A stretch of DNA of 64,000 bases from a virus: IMG/VR virus record IMGVR_UViG_3300028197_001237, positions 1-64,000 of that record; one strand, written 5' to 3'. A program made the translations under genes and the position numbers. Shown here one piece after another: positions 27,505 to 30,199 of the stretch (position 1 is its first letter; each line of letters starts with the position of its first letter). Under the pieces are notes generated by a model that made no database searches, had not been told where the DNA came from, and saw only the letters and a program-made list of their open reading frames with translations.

Positions 27505-27512
27505 GATAAATA
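27505..27512 (+). promoter_or_regulatory. Late promoter GATAAATA
   Basis: Late motif in the intergenic gap, 22 bp before the ATG at 27534. It implies late expression of the next two genes inside an otherwise early cluster. Confidence 0.6.
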
Positions 27513-27533: not shown

Positions 27534-27722
27534 ATGGCATATCTCATTAAAAGACAATCTCAGATTGATGATCGCTATGTTTACTTTGTGGGTAGTCAAT
27601 CTTGGTCTGATGATAGATCATTAGCTGTGGAGTTTGAAACTGAGAATGATGCTAAAATGTTGTTTTTGAACGCTGATGGATTGAATGGTGGTTTTAAAAC
27701 AGCTATTGCTGAGGAAAAGTAA
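27534..27722 (+). CDS. Small hypothetical protein, 62 aa
   Basis: 'MAYLIKRQSQIDDRYVYFVG' then 'SWSDDRSLAVEFETENDAKM'. A small alpha/beta protein of unknown function. Late promoter in front; its TAA overlaps the ATG of the capsid-targeted protein, so the two are likely co-expressed late. Confidence 0.6.
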   Translation: MAYLIKRQSQIDDRYVYFVGSQSWSDDRSLAVEFETENDAKMLFLNADGLNGGFKTAIAEEK

Positions 27723-28324
27723 TGAAAACATTTAGAGAGTTTATTTCAGAAGCTTCTATTCCTGATGAACTAGCAGGTGGTGCCTCTATTAGACAATCAG
27801 GTGAGGGTGGTAGAGTATATCGTAAGAGGAAGAAGTCCGAGGCAGAGACACGCCGAATGAAGGCAATTGGTGGTGGTAAGACTGCACCTGTCGGATATAA
27901 GGACAGGAAGGACATTGGATCCCAGAAGAAACGTAGTGAAAAAGAACAACAACCAGAAAAAGAGAGAGGAACAGCAGCACTCTCTGCCAAAGAAGCACAA
28001 CGTAAGGCATACAGAGAACGTAAAGCGAGAGAAGCAAGTAATAAATCTACTCCTGAAACTAGCAGATCAAAGGAAAAAGAAGCATCCAAACTTCTGACTA
28101 AGAAAACTGCACCTAAGAAACCTGCACCGGGATATAAATCACAACCCGCAAGTGGTAAGACTCGCGTAGAACGTGACAAGATACGCGGAGAGGGTGAAAG
28201 ATACCTGAAAGGTATTATGAAAGATCAAGAAACTTCTAAGTACAAGAAAGAAACTGGGACCAATCCCGATGCTAAGGGTAAGACAAAGATTCTTGGACGT
28301 GTCAATAAGAGAATGAGCACCTAA
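27722..28324 (+). CDS. Putative internal (capsid-packaged) protein with T4-type targeting sequence, 200 aa
   Basis: The N-terminus 'MKTFREFISEA' matches the T4 capsid-targeting sequence 'MKTYQEFIAEA' of internal proteins IPI-IPIII. 'ISE-A' fits the I/L-x-E cleavage rule of the prohead protease gp21, so cleavage after Glu10 is predicted. The mature part is very rich in Lys, Arg, Glu, Ser and Pro with no hydrophobic core: disordered, strongly basic, suited to packing with DNA. T4 internal proteins are injected with the genome and counter host defences. A late promoter at 27505 fits a virion protein. The 158-aa ORF on the opposite strand is a shadow. Confidence 0.7.
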   Translation: MKTFREFISEASIPDELAGGASIRQSGEGGRVYRKRKKSEAETRRMKAIGGGKTAPVGYKDRKDIGSQKKRSEKEQQPEKERGTAALSAKEAQRKAYRERKAREASNKSTPETSRSKEKEASKLLTKKTAPKKPAPGYKSQPASGKTRVERDKIRGEGERYLKGIMKDQETSKYKKETGTNPDAKGKTKILGRVNKRMST

Positions 28325-29320: not shown

Positions 29321-30199
29321 ATGACATCCACCCATCTCGAACATCCTGAAGATCTTATCCTCACGGGTGATATTTCTGTGATTGATGCACTATATGCACC
29401 CGCAGATATTACTATGAAGATGGATGGTATGTCACTTGTTTGGGGTACTAATCCTGAGAATGGTAAGTTTTTTGTTTGTACCAAAGCAGCATTCAACAAG
29501 AAAAAGATTCGTCTTTGTTATACTACAGACGACATCTTCACTCACTTTGGTCATCAAATAGAAGTCGTTGAGATTCTGTCATATTGTATCAAGTATCTTC
29601 CCCGAACAGAGAACATTTATTGGGGTGATTGGTTGGGTTTTGGTCGGACTCAACTCCTAAAACCTAACACTATTTCTTATCTCTTTCCTGAGAAAATCTC
29701 TCAAAAGATGGTGATTGCACCTCATACTCAGGTATTTGTTGATGGTCCTATGTGTGAAGCAACATGTAAACCATTGATTGAGATCTTAGATGACACCGCT
29801 ATCATCAAGTGGGTACAACCTTCCATTGATCGTCTTCCTTCCAATGAAACTGCACCGAATCTGAACACCTCTAAGGTTCAGTTCATGACAACTAAAGAGG
29901 CAAATGTTGCGAAACAGAAGATCAATTCCCTGGTCAAAGAGGGTCGTGAGTTGACTGATTCCAACCTATTTGATATTCTTGGTTGTGTCTATCTCACCAA
30001 TCTTTATCAACTGATCATCGAGATCAAAGAAGACATCATGAATTCTATGATTATCAATGATGCACCTCGTAGTTTCATTTTTGATGATGTAGAAACTGAT
30101 GGTGAGGGATATGTATTCCACACTGAGAACGTTTCATTCAAACTTGTCAATCGTGAGGAGTTTGCATACGCTAACTTCACTGACGGTCGTTTCAACTAA
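29321..30199 (+). CDS. Putative covalent nucleotidyltransferase (ligase-like, KxDG), 292 aa
   Basis: 'TMKMDGMSLVWGTNPENGKFF' is cited in parts: the K33-M-D35-G36 tetrad is the active-site motif of DNA/RNA ligases and capping enzymes, and the 'NPENGKFFVCTKAAFNKK' text matches a cyanophage family I recall as DUF6267. 'YWGDWLGFGR' (100-109) may be motif III. 'EGYVF' (262-266) and 'FKLV' (273-276) fit motifs IV and V. It would transfer AMP to a nucleic-acid or other end. No OB-fold or HxH partner domain is seen, so it is shorter than classical ligases. It is led by element copy 3; a helicase gene follows nearby. Confidence 0.55.
   Translation: MTSTHLEHPEDLILTGDISVIDALYAPADITMKMDGMSLVWGTNPENGKFFVCTKAAFNKKKIRLCYTTDDIFTHFGHQIEVVEILSYCIKYLPRTENIYWGDWLGFGRTQLLKPNTISYLFPEKISQKMVIAPHTQVFVDGPMCEATCKPLIEILDDTAIIKWVQPSIDRLPSNETAPNLNTSKVQFMTTKEANVAKQKINSLVKEGRELTDSNLFDILGCVYLTNLYQLIIEIKEDIMNSMIINDAPRSFIFDDVETDGEGYVFHTENVSFKLVNREEFAYANFTDGRFN

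Follow-up and report, generated by a model that had tools for sequence, protein, structure and literature searches.

A probable T4-type internal head protein with a capsid-targeting sequence in a Kyanoviridae-like cyanomyovirus

The tagged gene and its surroundings

The window analyzed here is a stretch of 64,000 nucleotides from an 89,310-base virus record whose gene content resembles that of T4-like cyanophages (Kyanoviridae-like). It contains a gene for a protein that starts with a near copy of the T4 capsid-targeting sequence (CTS), referred to below as the tag. The ORF, its ATG start, its length and its coordinates (Table 1) are those proposed in an earlier note made from sequence alone. 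The product begins MKTFREFISEASI, and the longer start region reads MKTFREFISEASIPDELAGG. Relatives of the gene were found at 66 contig loci and in the isolates S-SM2, P-TIM68, SynMITS9220M01, RN05-S, RB11-B, and S-B05. The gene sits in a variable cluster of small genes between the tail-fiber and baseplate genes, not in the head cluster, and a helicase gene is found within a few kb at most family loci. The earlier note had called this location an early cluster; the small-gene cluster was confirmed, and early expression has not been shown.

Table 1. Features of the tagged locus, in positions of the window
Feature	Position	Strand	Basis
T4-type late promoter GATAAATA	27505..27512	+	Sequence match to consensus NATAAATA; 29 nt before ORF 27534-27722
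Small ORF, 62 aa, phrog_24339, function unknown	27534..27722	+	Between promoter and tagged gene; PHROG match
CTS-tagged gene for a basic, putative internal protein, 200 aa	27722..28324	+	ORF call; ATG start
CTS, residues 1-10 MKTFREFISE; predicted gp21 cut after Glu10	27722..27751	+	T4 IPIII/IPII alignment; F7/E10 conservation; published residue roles
Conserved basic core, residues 27-84: GEGGR, GGGKxxPxxYKDRKDIG, QQPxxERGSA	27800..27973	+	Invariant columns of alignment A1
C-terminal helical hairpin, residues 148-199	28163..28318	+	AlphaFold2

A late promoter had been noted before the upstream partner gene, and this claim held: the match is to the published cyanophage consensus (PMC2984593). 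The same spacing is seen ahead of several of the window's structural genes. Among distinct relatives, 30 of 35 carry [AC]TAAATA 26-34 nt upstream of the family gene, on a background of 0.2%; the exceptions are L008 and close kin of the present genome. In L005, which is 92% identical, the small ORF is absent and the tagged gene comes straight after this promoter sequence; in the present genome, ORF 27534-27722 therefore separates the promoter from the gene that it serves in relatives. This ORF is a site of turnover, with copies in other close relatives retaining 43% (L004) and 50% (L006) identity. When tagged genes of all kinds are considered, the motif lies at -36 to -20 in 33 of 66, versus 93 of 878 other ORFs on the same contigs. 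Late expression of the gene is inferred from promoter sequence only, without transcript data.

The capsid-targeting sequence and the body that follows it

Work on the capsid-targeting sequence of T4 has centered on the T-even phages. The T4 internal proteins IPIII and IPII share the start MKTYQEFIAEA, of which the first ten residues are annotated as a leader that is cut after residue 10 (record X04567). Mutagenesis found that residues 4 and 7 matter most for targeting, and residues 8 and 10 for processing (PMC9026906). Residues 1-13 of our product and of IPIII (taken from record X04567) align as MKTFREFISEASI / MKTYQEFIAEASV, with 13/13 positions positive and 9 identical, and the likeness of MKTFREFISEA to the T4 start claimed by the earlier note, including an I-x-E-A site, was thus upheld. 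Targeting calls for an aromatic or hydrophobic residue 4 and for Phe7, and F4 and F7 are both present (MKTFREF); I8-S9-E10/A11 (the slash marking the cut) fits the gp21 site [LI]-x-E at residues 8-10, although cleavage is inferred. Pairwise alignment with IPIII found nothing meaningful past residue 13, and no similarity was found between the body of the protein and mature T4 IPII.

The pattern M-x-x-F-x-x-F-[LIVMF]-x-E, built from the T4 mutational data, has a single match in the whole 89-kb record. In the DNA of ten Kyanoviridae-type records it has 14 matches, all 14 at CTS-like gene starts, versus 1 match for a reversed control. The N-terminal match to T4 is therefore not due to chance, and at the sequence level the tag is real and near-identical to that of T4. 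A narrower K-[ST]-F pattern misses GC190 of phage S-SM1, which starts MKKF.

Conservation within the family falls on the residues with known roles. F4 and F7 are each found in 26 of 27 distinct relatives; F7 and E10 are invariant in alignment A1 (21 sequences) and nearly so family-wide, and positions 5 and 9 vary freely. Three relatives have insertions within the tag (FMQITEA in L011, FISLCEA in L059, and FMSLCEA in L070), and all of them keep [IL]-x-E-A. Loss of the tag from L013, L020, L042, and L049 was considered and rejected, as an in-frame upstream ATG restores it in each, if weakly in L049. The longer ORFs begin MKTFQQFQEE (L013), MKSFHQFVSEA (L020 and L021), MKTFSQFSES (L042), and, as a weaker match, MKNLQLFLEQA (L049). 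The N-terminus of L007 is truncated by the contig end. The family was found by sequence search in 4 of 11 Kyanoviridae-type records and is considered accessory because it is missing from the other 7.

The enzyme expected to cut the tag is encoded in the same record, where the gene for the gp21 prohead protease (PF03420, E 4.8e-36; G000:86491-86934) is followed by gp22 and then gp23. The gp22 protein has many [LIV]-x-E sites, and gp23 has a comparable site, NLME/SP, at about the expected place. Additionally, protein SSM2_108 of S-SM2 (142 aa, T4-GC 1207) begins with a tag, MKTLKQFLKE/TPTNSVGNGGYTSAGGQTVAGYD, and its post-tag sequence is identical at 22 of 32 positions (E 2e-12) to gp23 just past that protein's own [IL]xE site, MIAE/QPTNAVGNGGYTSSGGQTVAGFD. 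The post-tag part of SSM2_108 (GU071095 91376-91804; L226:3377-3805) copies the N-arm of the mature major capsid protein, gp23, and the boundary of the tag therefore falls at the gp21 site inferred for gp23.

The mature body of 190 residues is strongly basic, as had been claimed, with 28% lysine plus arginine, a net charge of +29, and a pI of 10.35, compared to 9.65 for T4 IPIII and 9.56 for T4 IPII. The second motif of its conserved core reads GGGKxxPxxYKxRKDIG across the family. The claim that the body is disordered held in part: AlphaFold2 models the C-terminal hairpin with a pLDDT of about 90 and the remainder with low confidence, and a wholly disordered body was dropped given this confident hairpin. 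In some relatives (L025, L039, L048, and L059) the C-terminal module has been swapped for one that differs from the hairpin.

Homology and fold searches gave no function for the body. Nothing significant was returned by scans against Pfam, PHROGs, and PADLOC (the best PHROG hit of our product had E 0.31), and the lone weak PADLOC hit (0.008), for one relative, was to a control protein. A profile search of solved structures found none below E 0.4. The sole confident Foldseek hit among viral models was an unnamed protein of 220 aa with 40% identity, which is likely a relative. The body represents a new family in a type of system already known, and with it T4 capsid targeting would reach into marine cyanophages.

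The tag on other proteins and in virions of related phages

The earlier note had suggested searching for the same start on unrelated bodies, and such proteins were found. Viral contigs were searched at the codon level for M-K-T-F-x-[QE]-F-I-x-E followed by a codon starting with G, and at least 120 stretches were recovered, nearly all of them at ORF starts; a control with nearly the same residues in permuted order recovered 0 from viral contigs. The bodies of 82 tagged proteins of 45 aa or longer fell into 39 clusters, the largest of which (12 members) is the family of our product. Other bodies matched Pfam entries for GNAT acetyltransferase, glucosaminidase, S-adenosylmethionine lyase, DUF6267, DUF5661, DUF6321, and LysM. 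The gp21 gene (PF03420) was found in four larger tag-carrying contigs and was not found in the remaining tag-carrying contigs searched, most of which are fragments.

Several further observations concern tagged proteins and their kin. The tagged proteins L112, L135, L116, L164, and L170 have H-G-T or Y-H-G-T...GF signatures that by eye are ADP-ribosyltransferase-like (compare T4 Alt), although L116 has no Pfam match. A module of approximately KAxxLxLxSDGHGGWxDxxGxxxAxTxxGxLKF follows the tag in a cytidylyltransferase/NMNAT (L226:42762-43988) and recurs, in more divergent form, in the Cas9 (gp12) and kinase (gp14) of S-CREM2 (L243); it could be a shared core-binding or linker module. Within the window, a DUF6267 protein (29321-30199) has a KxDG (ligase/nucleotidyltransferase-like) motif and no tag, and a tagged DUF6267 relative is present in L124. 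Outside of the window, the record encodes among its structural genes a basic protein of 504 aa (MINEEGLRDWFGKSKSKDGKPGW; 77310-78824, L071) that by eye resembles the bodies of tagged L135 and L184.

Published proteomes show that tagged proteins of related phages are present in virions. T4-GC190 was detected in purified virions of S-SM1 (PMC3037559), and its gene product SSM1_190 begins MKKFSAFLNEA. The NMNAT SSCSM1_91, detected in virions of S-SCSM1 (PMC9602691), begins MKSFLQFLKEA and has ATAAATA upstream. The cytidylyltransferase SSZBM1_140 was detected in virions of S-SZBM1 (PMC9146016), and the matching ORF starts MRFRQFIIEA. For S-CREM2, 52 virion proteins have been listed (PMC10665884 Table 3). 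Among its 219 CDS, five have [FYLW]xxF[LIVMF]xE in the first 12 residues, namely gp6 (SAM hydrolase), gp13, gp14 (APH-like kinase), gp136, and gp154 (cytidylyltransferase). All five were detected in virions, versus 47 of the 214 others (Fisher p 6.5e-4), and 0.07 sites would be expected by chance. The test has only five positives and was formalized after several N-termini had been inspected, though the residue positions come from T4 genetics.

In the annotated ORF of the virion Cas9 of S-CREM2 (gp12), RFASFMAEA lies at residue 18, and the start of this ORF may be misannotated. This Cas9, the SAM hydrolase gp6, and the kinase gp14 (OR473000; L243:3837-12846) are all virion-detected with CTS-like tags, which for the Cas9 and SAM hydrolase suggests delivery by the virion.

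The presence of tagged proteins in virions of relatives does not prove an internal location. The authors of PMC9602691 noted that abundant proteins may be carried over after CsCl purification, and SSZBM1_191 (tagged, 105 aa) is not in the 30-protein virion list of S-SZBM1 (PMC9146016). No mass spectra for our product or any member of its family were found in the published data searched. One could suppose that the N-terminal likeness arose by convergence or is an ancient motif of start regions, and that the protein acts only within the infected cell's cytoplasm, perhaps as a nucleic-acid chaperone. The lack of direct virion evidence for the family is consistent with this, as are the location in a small-gene cluster and the helicase nearby in most relatives. 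We consider it unlikely, given the conservation of functional residues, the late promoter, the generality of the tag, and the tagged proteins in virions.

The literature searched makes no mention of MKTF... tags, and nothing found there describes the tag as a loading signal used generally by marine cyanophages. On present evidence, the T4 targeting tag appears to be such a signal. A bolder reading, toward which we lean only slightly, is that marine T4-like phages have in the portable N-terminal tag an all-purpose loading system, which places cargoes of many unrelated kinds (SAM lyase, NMNAT, kinase, Cas9, GNAT, glucosaminidase, and basic proteins such as our product) in the head to be delivered alongside the genome; the ejected effectors of uncultured phages could then be predicted from the tag by itself.

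Proposed role and comparison with known systems

The best overall explanation, which we regard as likely, is that the product of the gene is an internal head protein of T4 type, made by a Kyanoviridae-like cyanomyovirus. The earlier proposal of an internal, capsid-targeted protein is supported by residue-specific conservation, gp21 in the same record, conserved late promoters, the tag on dozens of unrelated bodies, and the virion proteomes of relatives. In the proposed sequence of events, the gene would be transcribed late from GATAAATA, and residues MKTFREFISE would dock the protein onto the gp22/gp21 prohead core. Once gp21 has cut after Glu10, the mature and strongly basic product would remain in the head alongside the packaged DNA. 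We hold packaging through the tag and cutting by gp21 to be very likely, although both are inferred and neither has been observed. Ejection of the mature protein into the cyanobacterium along with the genome is probable by analogy with T4. The charge and conserved motifs hint, weakly, that it may ride on the DNA and act immediately after entry, where it would shield or organize the DNA or else block a host factor.

It is also possible that the product is an accessory protein of the prohead core or scaffold, like IPIII, that helps shape the head or condense the DNA and stays in the head without a role in the new host. The highly basic product with its helical C-terminus would fit this, polyheads accumulate in T4 IPIII mutants (PMC9026906), and gp136 of S-CREM2, which is tagged, basic, and virion-detected, is encoded between the terminase genes. 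However, the family is accessory and is encoded away from the head cluster, in a variable region of small genes, and swaps of C-terminal modules are more typical of host-facing factors.

Alternatively, the product may be an ejected anti-defense effector that, like T4 IPI, acts against a host nuclease or restriction system. Two enzymes for which an anti-restriction rationale is known, the virion SAM hydrolase of S-CREM2 and a protein of the SAM-lyase family (L181), carry the same tag; GmrSD is blocked by T4 IPI, and T4 needs IPIII on ECOR17 (PMC9026906 among sources). Against this, the protein is unrelated in sequence to the T4 internal proteins compared (IPIII and IPII) and to known defense-related families, and no enzyme fold is evident in its low-complexity basic body. 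The evidence is split over DNA protection or organization, core assembly, and anti-defense: the charge favors a DNA-bound role, whereas the accessory distribution and swapped C-termini favor a host-facing one. For this body, the ejected anti-defense or DNA-organizing factor that the earlier note had in mind remains an inference.

Since tagged proteins of relatives have been found in particles, the tag can be taken to mark those proteins that these phages probably carry into their hosts. If it works across marine cyanophages, it would explain the virion cytidylyltransferase/NMNAT, SAM hydrolase, kinase, and Cas9, none of which has an assigned packaging route. It would also provide a one-line sequence test for unknown phage genes whose products are delivered with the DNA, and make the effectors that ocean phages use in the first minutes directly testable.

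Three known systems invite comparison. With T4 IPIII and IPII, our product shares a ten-residue CTS with the same key residues, an [IL]xE/A site, a small basic mature protein, and gp21 in the genome; the T4 genes ipIII and ipII are themselves found in an early region, flanked by e and denV (record X04567). It differs in having an unrelated body that is more basic and partly disordered, though of IPIII-like length, and in belonging to another viral family with another host. The cyanophage cytidylyltransferase/NMNAT (T4-GC190) likewise has a CTS-like N-terminus in Kyanoviridae and is a virion protein in S-SM1, S-SCSM1, S-SZBM1, and S-CREM2, but it has a nucleotidyltransferase domain and often a post-tag 'DGHGGW' module, both of which are absent here. 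Like our product, S-CREM2 gp136 has a CTS-like start, a lysine-rich body (237 aa in all), and a late promoter, and it has been detected in virions, although the two bodies have no evident sequence similarity and gp136 lies between the terminase genes.
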